From assembly GCA_016871495.1 (NCBI GenBank), contig VHDF01000017.1, forward strand, positions 1 through 64,000: a DNA stretch of 64,000 nt, written 5' to 3'. The DNA comes from Verrucomicrobiota bacterium (GTDB lineage Bacteria; Verrucomicrobiota; Verrucomicrobiia; Limisphaerales; VHDF01). Below, one piece after another: positions 8,510 to 13,295 of this stretch. Positions within the stretch are counted from its first letter, which is position 1, and each line of letters opens with the position of its first letter. The notes under the pieces were generated by a model that saw only the letters and a list, made by a program, of their open reading frames with translations, made no database searches and was not told where the DNA came from. A program made the translations under genes and the position numbers.

Positions 8510-9247
8510 TTACTTGGAAAGACCAAGGACGTTCTGCATCGAGTAGAGGCCGGGTTTTTGCCGCACGACCCAGAGGGCGGCTCGGAGCGCGCCGTGGGCA
8601 AAGGTGTCGCGGCTCGAGGCTTTGTGGGTGAGTTCGAGCCGTTCGCCGTTGGCGGCAAAGATGACGGTGTGATCTCCCACCACGTCACCGCCGCGGAGGG
8701 AGTGCATGCCGATTTCCTCCGATGTGCGTTCACCGACGATGCCGTGCCGGCCGTGGCGGGCGACGTTTTTGAGCTGGGATTGTCGGACGGAGGCGAGGAT
8801 CTCGCCCAAGGTTTCGGCGGTGCCGCTCGGCGCGTCCTTTTTGAGCCGATGATGCATTTCGACGACTTCAAGATCGAAATCGGGTCCCAGGATTTCGGCG
8901 GCCTGGCGGGTCAGCCAGAAGAGCGTGTTCACACCCGTCGAGTAATTCGAGGCCCAAACCATGGGGATGACAGAGGCAAGATCCTGGATCGATTTTTTGG
9001 CGGTTTCGTCATGCCCGGTCGTGCCGATGACCAGGGCTTTGCCGAGCGAGGCGCATTTGAGCGCGACTCCCAGGGTGGCGGAATGGAACGTAAAATCGAT
9101 CACCACATCCGCGGCGGGAAGGGCCTCATCGAGTGAATCTCCGAGGTCCACCTTTCCCGTGATTTCGGCATCCGGGATTCTGGCGGCGCCTGTGATGAGG
9201 GCCTGGCCCATGCGGCCTTTGGAACCGTGGATCAGAATGCGAGTCAT
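8510..9247 (-). CDS. dapB: 4-hydroxy-tetrahydrodipicolinate reductase DapB
   Basis: 245-residue NAD(P)H-dependent enzyme of lysine and diaminopimelate synthesis, reducing the DapA product to tetrahydrodipicolinate. The Rossmann start 'ILIHGSKGRMGQAL' carries the GxxGxMG loop, 'VIGTTGHDE' is the cofactor-binding turn, and 'EMHHRLKKDAPSGTA' holds the catalytic histidine-lysine signature. 'HSLRGGDVVGDHTVIF' is the conserved C-terminal domain segment. Its ATG overlaps the dapA stop codon (ATGA), so it is the last gene of dapF-dapA-dapB. Verrucomicrobiota are known to use the DapL aminotransferase route after this step; dapL is not in the window. Confidence 0.97.
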   Translation of the reverse strand: MTRILIHGSKGRMGQALITGAARIPDAEITGKVDLGDSLDEALPAADVVIDFTFHSATLGVALKCASLGKALVIGTTGHDETAKKSIQDLASVIPMVWASNYSTGVNTLFWLTRQAAEILGPDFDLEVVEMHHRLKKDAPSGTAETLGEILASVRQSQLKNVARHGRHGIVGERTSEEIGMHSLRGGDVVGDHTVIFAANGERLELTHKASSRDTFAHGALRAALWVVRQKPGLYSMQNVLGLSK

Positions 9248-10149
9248 ACGCCGGGGCTCTTGACAATGCCTGCCGCTCGGAGTGTTTGCACGAGTGATTC
9301 GCGATGTTTGGGCGTCATGGGCACGAGAGGAAGTCGGTATTCTTCCGCCAGGAGGCCCATCTCGGCCAGCGCGGCTTTTACCGGGATGGGGTTGGTTTCG
9401 AGGAAGAGGTCTTTGAAGACCGGATAGAATTTATGATGAAGCTTGAGGGCGATGGCCGGCTTGCCCAGGGCAAAGGCGCGAACCATGTGGGCCACTTCCC
9501 TGGGAATGATGTTGGAGGCTACGCTGATCACGCCGTCGGCGCCCACCGCCATGAAGGGCAGCGTGAGGGAGTCATCCCCGCTGAGGATGACGAAGTCTTT
9601 GCCCAGTGAAGCTCGCAACTGACTCACGCGATCGCAACTGCCGCCCGCCTCTTTGATTCCAACGATGTTCACGCTGTCATGGGCCAGCCGGTTGACCGTG
9701 TCCACCGCGATTTCGATGCCGCAGCGTCCGGGAATGCTGTAGAGGAGGATCGGGAGCGTGGTGGCGCGCGCGATGGCGTGGAAATGTTGAAAGAGGCCCT
9801 CTTGCGTGGGCTTGTTGTAGTAGGGGGCGACCTGCAGAGAAGCGTCGGCGCCGACCGACTGGGCGGCGAGGGTCAGGTGGATGGCTTCTTCCGTGCAATT
9901 CGCTCCGGTACCCGCGATGACGCGGATTTTCTTGTGGGCGAACTTGACGGAGAGTTCGATGACCCGGATGTGTTCCTCGACGGAGAGGGTCGGAGATTCT
10001 CCGGTGGTGCCGACGGGGACGATGCCCTCCACGCCCTGGCGAATCTGAAACCGGATGAGTTTTTCCAGAGCCGCCTCATCGAGTCGTCCATCTCGGAATG
10101 GGGTCGCGAGGGCGGTGTAGGTTCCGTGGAAAGCGCGGGCGGCTGTCAT
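9244..10149 (-). CDS. dapA: 4-hydroxy-tetrahydrodipicolinate synthase DapA
   Basis: 301-residue class I aldolase condensing pyruvate with aspartate semialdehyde, the first committed step to diaminopimelate and lysine. It has 'GTYTALATPFRDGRLDE', 'GIVPVGTTGESPTLS' (pyruvate carboxylate loop), 'APYYNKPTQEGLFQHF' with the catalytic tyrosine, 'SIPGRCG' and the Schiff-base lysine in 'VGIKEAGGS'. Length and motifs are typical. It lies 89 bases after dapF and overlaps dapB by four bases. Confidence 0.97.
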   Translation of the reverse strand: MTAARAFHGTYTALATPFRDGRLDEAALEKLIRFQIRQGVEGIVPVGTTGESPTLSVEEHIRVIELSVKFAHKKIRVIAGTGANCTEEAIHLTLAAQSVGADASLQVAPYYNKPTQEGLFQHFHAIARATTLPILLYSIPGRCGIEIAVDTVNRLAHDSVNIVGIKEAGGSCDRVSQLRASLGKDFVILSGDDSLTLPFMAVGADGVISVASNIIPREVAHMVRAFALGKPAIALKLHHKFYPVFKDLFLETNPIPVKAALAEMGLLAEEYRLPLVPMTPKHRESLVQTLRAAGIVKSPGV

Positions 10150-10238: not shown

Positions 10239-11075
10239 TCAGGTATAGATTTCGGGATGCAGCTCCCCGTGCCCCACCCGGGTGACGGGACCCGTCATGA
10301 GGATGTCGTAGTCAGGGCTGATTTCGATCAGGAGCTGGCCGCCGGGCATGTGCACGGTCACGTGTTCGTCCACGAGACCAAGCTTTTTCGCGACGGCGGC
10401 GGATGCGCTGCTGCTGCTGCCGGAGGCGAGAGTGTAGCCGGCGCCGCGTTCCCAAATCTCGATCCGGATGTTACGGCGGTCGAGGATTTGGAGGAACTGG
10501 ACATTCGTTCGTTTGGGGAAAAGGGAGTGAGTTTCGAGCCCGGGACCGTACTGGCGGGCGAGCGATTCGTTCACTTCGGGCAGAGGGATGACACAATGGG
10601 GGTTGCCCACGGTGGCGGCGCAGAACGTGAACGTGCGTCCCTGGACCGGGATGGATTCTTGCAGGACCTCGCGCGATGGGCCGGCCACGGGGATGAGGTC
10701 GCTTTGGAAACTCACGCGGCCCATTTCGACCCGCACTTCGCGGCCTTGCTGGCTGACGGTGGATCGAACGCGTCCACCCAGGGTATCGAGCGTGAATTCC
10801 TCGCCTCCGACCCGGCCCGTGTCGAAGAGGTAACGCGAAAAAATGCGAATGCCGTTGCCGCTTTTCTCGGCTTCGCTTCCGTCTGGATTGAAAATGCGGA
10901 GGCCGAAGTCAGCCTGGGTGGAAGGGAGCGGTCCCAGCAGGATGCCGTCGGAACCGATGCCAAAATGGCGATGGCAGATGCGAACGATTTCGGCGGGCGT
11001 GAGTTCCGCGCTCCCTTGGGAGGGGTCGATGACCAGGTAGTCGTTCCCCAGCGCATGGTACTTGCTGAATATCAT
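10239..11075 (-). CDS. dapF: DapF-family diaminopimelate epimerase with both catalytic Cys replaced by Ser
   Basis: 278-residue protein of the diaminopimelate epimerase fold, which in typical members interconverts LL- and meso-DAP for peptidoglycan and lysine. Clear family features: 'KYHALGNDYLVID', 'NPDGSEAEKSGNGIR', 'TVGNPHCV', 'PKRTNVQF', 'IEIWERGAGYT'. The two cysteines that act as acid and base are serine here: S72 (codon AGC) in 'KSGNGIR', where the family has CGN, and S218 (codon TCC) in 'TLASGSSSSA', where the family has LACGTG. I read both codons from the nucleotide sequence. The position upstream of dapA and dapB argues for a role in this pathway, but the usual two-thiol mechanism cannot operate. 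It may be a divergent working enzyme, a relative with another substrate, or inactive. Confidence 0.9.
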   Translation of the reverse strand: MIFSKYHALGNDYLVIDPSQGSAELTPAEIVRICHRHFGIGSDGILLGPLPSTQADFGLRIFNPDGSEAEKSGNGIRIFSRYLFDTGRVGGEEFTLDTLGGRVRSTVSQQGREVRVEMGRVSFQSDLIPVAGPSREVLQESIPVQGRTFTFCAATVGNPHCVIPLPEVNESLARQYGPGLETHSLFPKRTNVQFLQILDRRNIRIEIWERGAGYTLASGSSSSASAAVAKKLGLVDEHVTVHMPGGQLLIEISPDYDILMTGPVTRVGHGELHPEIYT

Positions 11076-11280: not shown

Positions 11281-11970
11281 TCAATTCCACCACGAGGAAT
11301 AGACTGGGCTCACGTCGATGAGTCCTCCCGCGAAGTAGGAGTTGGGAGCCATCGAAAAGCGTTTGAGTTCGGGATTCCATCGCAAGGAAAGGGGTTCGCG
11401 AGGTTGGTTGGGGTCGTAAGCGAGGATGGCTTCCAAGCGTCCATCTTTTTCGACCCTTTGGTAGGCGAGGACGGCGTGATTGATGGTGAGGGCGGGGAAT
11501 TTCAGGATATGAAGAGCCACGAGTTCTTGCCGGGCGAGGCGGAGGGTTAGTTTTCGCGCCGTTCGCTCCTGCTGCCGTCCGGTAAAGGGGAAGACCATGC
11601 GCCAATGGCCGCGTTGCAGGTATTTTCGCCAGGCGCCTCCGCAGACGGATCGGACCTGTTCAGGGCAGGCGGCGCTGAAATCATGGAACCCGGCAAAACC
11701 GGGGACCTCGATGGTTTTGGAACTCGAAGCGCATGGGCGAGTCGCGCGCGGAGAGCGCGATCGAACGCGGCGCAGGATGTCCCCGGCTTCTTTCGGCGTG
11801 GGGGCGGGGGCGTCGGGGTTGAAGCGTGCGTGTCGATGAAAGAGCAGGGTCAGCCGGGCGAGGGCGTCCCGAGCGAGAACAAAGTCTTTCGCCGAGAGCC
11901 ATCCGGGAGCGAACCAGGATCCGAGGAGGACAACCAGCCAAGCCGCTCGCGCTCGTTTGGAGATCCACAT
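11281..11970 (-). CDS. Secreted hypothetical protein, possible cysteine-peptidase-like fold
   Basis: 229 residues with a signal peptide 'MWISKRARAAWLVVLLGSWFAPGWLSA'. The C-terminal part 'LTINHAVLAYQRVEKDG...AILAYDPNQPREPLSL' resembles the His-Ala-Val and YDPN segments of papain-like or C39-like cysteine peptidases, where histidine is catalytic and the Asn/Asp follows. The midpart 'FHDFSAACPEQVRSVCGGAWRKYLQ' contains two cysteines, but I cannot match a catalytic Gln-Cys pair convincingly. The start at 11970 begins the signal peptide. The gene is divergent from the AMP-ligase gene with 47 bases between them. The enzymatic idea is weak inference. Confidence 0.6.
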   Translation of the reverse strand: MWISKRARAAWLVVLLGSWFAPGWLSAKDFVLARDALARLTLLFHRHARFNPDAPAPTPKEAGDILRRVRSRSPRATRPCASSSKTIEVPGFAGFHDFSAACPEQVRSVCGGAWRKYLQRGHWRMVFPFTGRQQERTARKLTLRLARQELVALHILKFPALTINHAVLAYQRVEKDGRLEAILAYDPNQPREPLSLRWNPELKRFSMAPNSYFAGGLIDVSPVYSSWWN

Positions 11971-12017
11971 GGTTCGCTTCTTGCCGGCAAGACTAGGGGT
12001 GGGATAGCAAAGGCGCA

Positions 12018-13295
12018 ATGCTCTACGAACGATGGTTGGAGACGGTTGACCGCCAGCGGTCAAAACTGGCGCTCATGGAATTCGGCACCGGACAGAGCTG
12101 GACGTTTGAAGCATTACAAACGGAGTGTGAGCAGTGCGTGAGGGAAGGTGTGCAGGAAGGGTCTTTGGCGTCCGCGACTGGAGGCGGGTTGGAATTCGTC
12201 CTGGGGGTGCTGAGGGGGTGGCGGCTGGGAATTCCGGTGTGTCCGTTGGAAAGGGGCCAAGCGGCGCCGCTGGGAATGCTCGCTCCGAAGGGAACGGCTC
12301 ATGTGAAATCCACCTCCGCGACGACTTCCTCGGCACGTTGGGTATGCTTTACGGAGGCTCAACTGGCGGCGGATGTCGACGCTTTGGTGCCGGCGATGGG
12401 CTTGAGAGGTGACGCGCCGAACTTGGCGGTCATTTCAATGGCGCATTCCTATGGTTTCTCGAATTTGGTGATGCCGTTGCTTCTGCATGGCGTTCCACTG
12501 GTGACGGGCGTGGAGAGGCTGCCGGGCGCGCTCGCCCGGGCGTCGGCTTGTTTCGAAGCGGTGACGTTGCCGGCGGTGCCGGCGCTCTGGTCGGCGTGGC
12601 ACACGGCGGGGGCGATTCCTGGAAACGCGCGAGTGGCCATCAGCGCCGGGGCGCCCTTGCCTCTTCCGCTCGATGAGGATGTCTTTCGCCAATACGGGCT
12701 GAAAATCCACAATTTCTACGGTTCCACCGAGTGCGGTGGCATTGCCTACGACGATTCCCAGCGACCGCGCGAGGATCCATGGGTGGTGGGACGGGCTTTG
12801 CCCGGACGGACGCTGTCGATGGGCGAGGCTGGGAACTTGGTGGTGGAAGGAGCGAGTGTGGGGCTGGGTTATTGGCCTGAAGCGCCATCCGCCATGGGGA
12901 TGGGCCGATTTGAGACGAGCGATGCTGTGCGTTTGGAACAAGGCATCGTGCGCTGGCTGGGGAGGCTCAACGACACCATCAATGTGGCAGGCCGCAAGCT
13001 GCATCCGGAGGTCGTGGAACGGGTGCTGGCGGGATGTCCGGACGTGCGGGAGGTCGCCGTGTTTGGGGTGACGTCCCTGCATGCATCGCGTGGGGATGAG
13101 GTTGTGGCGTGCTGGGCAGGGGGTGAAGGAAGCGATGAACTTCGGATCAAGGATCATGCCACCCGCCAACTGGAGGACTGGCAGGTGCCACGCCACTGGG
13201 TCAGAGTCGGGCGATTGCCCGTGAACGAGCGGGGAAAGATATCCCGGAGCGAACTTCGAGCGCGTTGGCAGCGTGGGGAAAGTCTGGAGGATTGA
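12018..13295 (+). CDS. AMP-dependent acyl/aryl-CoA synthetase-like (ANL superfamily) protein
   Basis: 425-residue adenylate-forming enzyme, shorter than the usual 500-550. Recognisable segments: 'YGFSNLVMPLLLHGVPLV', 'NFYGSTECGGIAYDD' (A5 motif), 'RFETSDAVRLEQGIVRWLGRLND' (A7/A8 region), 'INVAGRKLHPEVVERVL', and the C-terminal 'PVNERGKISRSEL' with the catalytic lysine of A10. The phosphate-binding A3 motif (TSGTTGxPKG in relatives) is reduced to 'TSATTSSAR' (about 99-107), so ATP handling may differ. The substrate is unknown and no carrier-protein gene is adjacent. It ends 30 bases from a convergent deacetylase gene. Confidence 0.8.
   Translation: MLYERWLETVDRQRSKLALMEFGTGQSWTFEALQTECEQCVREGVQEGSLASATGGGLEFVLGVLRGWRLGIPVCPLERGQAAPLGMLAPKGTAHVKSTSATTSSARWVCFTEAQLAADVDALVPAMGLRGDAPNLAVISMAHSYGFSNLVMPLLLHGVPLVTGVERLPGALARASACFEAVTLPAVPALWSAWHTAGAIPGNARVAISAGAPLPLPLDEDVFRQYGLKIHNFYGSTECGGIAYDDSQRPREDPWVVGRALPGRTLSMGEAGNLVVEGASVGLGYWPEAPSAMGMGRFETSDAVRLEQGIVRWLGRLNDTINVAGRKLHPEVVERVLAGCPDVREVAVFGVTSLHASRGDEVVACWAGGEGSDELRIKDHATRQLEDWQVPRHWVRVGRLPVNERGKISRSELRARWQRGESLED

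Follow-up and report, generated by a model that had tools for sequence, protein, structure and literature searches.

The dapF-like gene of the window (the whole 64,000-nucleotide stretch of DNA that was analysed) carries serine at both positions where diaminopimelate (DAP) epimerases have their catalytic cysteines, and we consider it, with a probability of roughly 0.6, to encode a working LL-/meso-DAP epimerase that uses Ser72 and Ser218 instead of cysteine as acid and base. DAP epimerase chemistry is taught as two-cysteine chemistry, the enzyme is essential in bacteria, and Cys-to-Ser changes serve to disable enzymes of this kind. With slightly less confidence, we also favour a wider picture, in which a cofactor-independent amino-acid epimerase performs 1,1-proton transfer on DAP with two serines and without a thiol on either face. 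This enzyme would be the only supplier of meso-DAP in many bacteria and would have spread between phyla by in-place replacement of the Cys enzyme.

Codons, features and family assignment

The first-pass annotation had placed serine at both catalytic positions and the gene at the head of a dapF-dapA-dapB cluster, and both statements were borne out by the DNA: codon 72 was read as AGC (GAG AAA AGC GGC AAC GGC on the strand of the gene) and codon 218 as TCC (CTC GCC TCC GGC AGC AGC AGC AGC), with dapA and dapB lying 3' of dapF on the same strand. The features are as follows.

10239..11075, minus strand: dapF-like gene of the Ser/Ser subfamily, 278 amino acids, ATG at 11075 and stop at 10239
10860..10862, minus strand: Ser72 codon AGC, in place of the catalytic Cys of the N-terminal domain (Ser in 127/127 subfamily proteins vs Cys in 41/41 canonical proteins)
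10422..10424, minus strand: Ser218 codon TCC, in place of the catalytic Cys of the C-terminal domain (127/127 Ser vs 41/41 Cys)
10863..10865, minus strand: Lys71 codon AAA, subfamily-specific (127/127 Lys vs 41/41 Met in canonical proteins)
10434..10436, minus strand: Tyr214 codon (126/127 Tyr; mostly Glu in canonical proteins)
10413..10415, minus strand: Ser221 codon (127/127 Ser vs 41/41 Gly in canonical proteins)
10458..10460, minus strand: Glu206 codon (127/127 Glu; Arg in 39/41 canonical proteins)
9244..10149, minus strand: dapA, 4-hydroxy-tetrahydrodipicolinate synthase (TIGR00674, 367.9 bits), 89 bp 3' of dapF
8510..9247, minus strand: dapB, 4-hydroxy-tetrahydrodipicolinate reductase (TIGR00036, 242 bits), overlapping dapA by 4 bp

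The protein contains the two PF01678 halves and scored 246.5 bits against the DapF equivalog model TIGR00652 (cut-off 114.65), and the NCBIfam and Pfam models label it DapF with no mention of the Cys-to-Ser change. It is not a member of the bifunctional DapF/glutamate racemase family NF038284 (64.6 bits vs cut-off 350). The two catalytic cysteines that define DapF are absent from it and from its whole subfamily. The PROSITE DapF signature, N-x-[DN]-[GS]-[SENGFT]-x(4)-C-[GI]-N-[GA]-x-R, was missed by the window protein at the cysteine only and matched none of the 127 Ser/Ser proteins, and with C read as S it matched 125 of them. The earlier statement that all the rest is conserved goes too far: 21 positions distinguish the subfamily, Lys71, Tyr214, Ser221 and Glu206 among them. 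Because the signature fails at the catalytic cysteine, we did not file the gene as an ordinary DapF but as a member of a Ser/Ser subfamily whose most likely function is that of DapF.

Relatives, tree and codon switching

When each species was represented by a single genome, the search gave 80 relatives at about 60–72% identity; every one is Ser/Ser and carries EKSGNG[LI]RIF and RGAGYTLASGSSSS as motifs, or sequences close to these. They were labelled as Verrucomicrobiota, Opitutaceae, Cyanobacteria (genera Dulcicalothrix, Westiellopsis and Aphanothece), Deltaproteobacteria, Planctomycetota, Armatimonadota and further groups. The labels of the MAGs among them may be incorrect, but isolates and complete chromosomes are also included, Ser/Ser being confirmed in the isolate Dulcicalothrix desertica PCC 7102 as well as in CP011265.1, a complete genome. 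At identities of about 51% and above, 127 of 127 distinct proteins were Ser/Ser, canonical relatives at about 42% and below were Cys/Cys in 41 of 41 cases, and no mixed Ser/Cys pair or intermediate occurred among these 168 proteins. Match identities were likewise bimodal over 384 genomes of the window's phylum (read proteins at ≥51% Ser/Ser, at ≤42% Cys/Cys), with 82 genomes in the upper group by our count of the list. Ser/Ser was found in 4 of 244 cyanobacterial genomes, two of which (G541 and G697) had no other match, and in the phylum of a delta-proteobacterial genome (G444) 5 of 198 genomes gave matches at 58–64% identity, the four that were read all being Ser/Ser. The clade occurs, then, in Verrucomicrobiota, Cyanobacteria and Desulfobacterota, and in MAGs labelled as other phyla. 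The first-pass annotation had proposed a comparison with DapF proteins of other Verrucomicrobiota and named clade-wide Cys, with an artefact here, as refuting; the clade proved to be Ser/Ser throughout.

In a quick tree of 81 proteins, the Ser/Ser proteins formed a single clade (SH-aLRT 100). The YERG-type Cys/Cys enzymes of the window's own order lay further from this clade than did the WERG-type Cys/Cys enzymes found in other phyla. We regard Ser/Ser DapF as a distinct, ancient subfamily. All six Ser codons were found in the set of 127 proteins (position 72: TCN 69, AGY 58; position 218: TCN 111, AGY 16), and the tree required a minimum of 4 switches between AGY and TCN at position 72 and of 9 at position 218. 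Such a switch passes via Cys or Thr, or takes a double change. Neither Cys nor Thr was seen at either position across the 127 proteins despite these switches, indicating that serine itself is under selection; its retention speaks against a dead site that is left to drift.

The residues at the 21 distinguishing positions were fixed at ≥95% among Ser/Ser proteins and hardly occurred among Cys/Cys proteins; besides those listed above they include Ser220 (Thr in canonical proteins), and several flank Ser72 and Ser218. A functional role for these co-changed residues is hypothetical, and shared ancestry alone could have fixed them because the proteins form a single clade on a long stem. Residues N11, N63, H160, N191, E209 and R210, which we take to be the substrate-binding residues of published DapF structures, were invariant across Ser/Ser and Cys/Cys proteins in a mixed alignment. 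Compensation by a new, subfamily-specific invariant thiol was rejected, no such cysteine appearing in the 127-vs-41 comparison: Cys34 was present in 127/127 Ser/Ser and also in 31/41 Cys/Cys proteins, Cys161 of the GNPHC loop in 126/127 vs 13/41, and Cys152 in only 94/127 Ser/Ser proteins.

Structure and proposed chemistry

The AlphaFold2 model of the Ser/Ser protein had a mean pLDDT of 95.2, and its best PDB match was the cyanobacterial DAP epimerase 9mro (TM 0.92), with proline-racemase-type structures ranking far below DapF. Thus the protein resembles DapF (TIGR00652, PF01678; 9mro and H. influenzae 1gqz) in fold, length, substrate-binding residues, operon slot and family score, and departs from it in having Ser for both Cys and Lys71, Tyr214, Ser221 and Glu206 for Met, mostly Glu, Gly and Arg, respectively. 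In the model, S72 and S218 immediately precede helices 73–85 and 219–231, an arrangement shared with DapF. Placed at the N-termini of these two helices, the serines would take both cysteine places and serve as acid and base, one on each face of the substrate carbon, proton transfer being carried out by their hydroxyls with the aid of the helix dipoles and perhaps of Lys71, Tyr214 and Ser221. An alkoxide exceeds a thiolate in basicity; the cost would lie in forming it, and the helix dipoles and new neighbouring residues might lower that cost. An active site built around serine could behave unlike a canonical site engineered from Cys to Ser.

Such engineered sites perform poorly. DapF-type enzymes with Cys-to-Ser changes were reported to retain <0.1% activity (PMC8225329), and the same change greatly slows a DapF-like histidine racemase (PMC11602996). 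The engineered DapF variants C73S and C217S (PDB 2q9h and 2q9j) have Ser at one of the same positions as the window protein, but they are man-made and single, and mutants of this type are reported to be almost inactive. In canonical DapF, tuning of the thiols is attributed to helix dipoles (PMC8142540), and C. glutamicum DapF is turned off by a disulfide joining both catalytic cysteines (PMC5296763). Natural serine is known within the broad fold, in the proline racemase superfamily (PMC4113996), at one catalytic Cys position of hydroxyproline 2-epimerase B9JQV3 (Ser/Cys) and of trans-3-hydroxyproline dehydratase B9K4G4 (Ser/Thr). These belong to another family with other substrates, the epimerase keeping one Cys and the dehydratase catalysing an elimination, and the one-Ser-one-Cys pattern of the Ser/Cys epimerases does not apply to the window protein, in which both residues are Ser. 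EcL-DER, a Cys/Thr aspartate/glutamate racemase (PMC8142540), is a cofactor-independent racemase that has naturally lost one catalytic thiol, but it is of another fold family, retains the other thiol and works in one direction. A literature search of open-licence articles found no description or activity of a natural Ser/Ser DapF.

The most serious competitor to serine catalysis, which we nevertheless hold to be unlikely, is a working DAP epimerase whose acid and base are Lys71, Tyr214 or a bound cofactor, with the serines only shaping the site. Racemases of other folds are known to use lysine as a base. The complete conservation of Lys71 in the Ser/Ser set, its absence from canonical relatives and the near-invariance of Tyr214 speak for this arrangement, and the presence of several co-conserved residues could mean that groups other than serine do the chemistry; a cofactor would have a precedent in the PLP-dependent side activity reported for one DapF (PMC5885031). 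On the other hand, no hint of a PLP site was seen in the Ser/Ser sequence, and filler residues would not need to be held through switches of codon set as the two serines have been.

Operon slot and other sources of meso-DAP

Ser/Ser genes were located immediately 5' of dapA and in the same orientation in the window and in six further loci of its order (L003, L006, L009, L011, L013 and L015), and Cys/Cys genes occupied the same slot in loci from different families of that order (L018–L022, L025 and L027); the distance to dapA was 27–391 bp for Ser/Ser and 62–359 bp for Cys/Cys. The DapA proteins of both groups were 62–77% identical to the window's DapA, whereas the Cys/Cys DapFs of this slot were only 29–35% identical to its DapF, indicating that one gene was exchanged within a conserved operon. 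The order loci that were read had a single dapF type per genome. On the 5' side of the window's dapF, a 260-aa protein without Pfam or NCBIfam match is encoded at 11281–12063 (minus strand).

The window's genome (97% complete, 201 contigs) contains one PF01678 protein in total; a second, Cys/Cys dapF was not found, LysA (C8:23362-24615) and DapL (C15:66857-68071) were over cut-off, and no DAP dehydrogenase was detected in the assembly. In five closed relatives (G145, G179, G197, G329 and G332), the Ser/Ser protein was again the sole PF01678 protein, lysA and dapL were over cut-off, MurE carried the meso-DAP motif DNPR, and DAP dehydrogenase was absent over cut-off, G179 giving a weak partial match far below it. 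A bypass by DAP dehydrogenase was rejected, since this enzyme is missing from the window's own genome and exceeded its cut-off in just 4 of the 40 genomes examined, of which two are Ser/Ser genomes. Among the three readings offered by the first-pass annotation, a second epimerase is thus excluded for the DapF family in the window's own genome and the closed genomes tested, and a changed substrate is unlikely, as the protein shares its slot with Cys/Cys enzymes and no other candidate for meso-DAP formation is known, so that a changed mechanism remains.

Additional copies occur in a minority of genomes. Another full PF01678 protein was present in 6 of the 82 phylum genomes (G169, G198, G273, G302, G333 and G348); a Cys/Cys DapF was read in G302, G333 and G348, and the extra copies read in G169, G198, G273, G302 and G333 had an LCGNGTAC motif and lacked the substrate arginine. 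These divergent LCGNGTAC proteins (L226–L230) keep the catalytic Cys and are perhaps racemases for another substrate. Ser/Ser and Cys/Cys proteins stood side by side in G348, G439, G440, G441 and G480, and this coexistence would also fit a separate role of the Ser/Ser protein in those genomes. In G333, which is 9% contaminated, the Cys/Cys DapF adjoins lysA (G333:C29:28598-30648). Five genomes of the order (G017, G028, G043, G045 and G052) had no PF01678 protein, G017 being 97% complete.

It is improbable that the Ser/Ser protein has acquired a new substrate or reaction (e.g. another diamino acid) with meso-DAP coming from an unrelated, unknown epimerase. DapF relatives with other substrates do exist (HisR, PddB and O-ureidoserine racemase), and some genomes have both dapF types; against this, the gene sits in the dapF-dapA slot, its DAP-binding residues are kept, and in most genomes having it it is the only PF01678 protein, together with lysA and usually without DAP dehydrogenase. 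An epimerase of very low or no activity that is retained for some other purpose, for instance regulation or binding, would agree with the near-dead canonical Cys-to-Ser mutants, but is less probable still, because conservation of both motifs is strict across 127 diverse proteins and genomes with lysA and an mDAP-type MurE must get meso-DAP from somewhere. A sequencing or assembly artefact, conceivable for a fragmented draft genome, is refuted by the same serines in more than 100 independent genomes including isolates and complete chromosomes, and its probability is negligible.

Taken together, the genetics argues strongly for DAP epimerisation by the Ser/Ser protein, probably through Ser72 and Ser218. 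Since it is the only copy in many bacteria, the alternatives are that serine can carry out this reaction and that the textbook mechanism is incomplete. If a natural Ser/Ser DapF does replace the Cys/Cys enzyme, alcohols or other residues can perform proton transfer in a suitable site, and DapF enzymes unresponsive to thiol reagents and oxidation are predicted. The near-inactivity of engineered Cys-to-Ser enzymes makes the two-thiol rule directly testable with this natural variant.

The idea that Ser/Ser goes along with murE loss in the order was rejected, both dapF types occurring with and without murE. MurE was not over cut-off in 26 of 58 genomes of the order (G000–G057), of either dapF type, and these include the near-complete genomes G005, G010, G021, G022, G025, G041 and G055. 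The window's genome likewise had no MurE over cut-off. Its division and cell-wall cluster has the order ftsI-murF-mraY, and from a reading of this cluster only, murC, murD and murE are apparently gone from their usual places, while Mpl is encoded elsewhere in this genome (TIGR01081, 457.5 bits); the loci concerned are L248 (G000:C9:1-9000), L274 and L252:1385-2779. This suggests that peptidoglycan is built by a route in which Mpl ligates a ready-made tripeptide.
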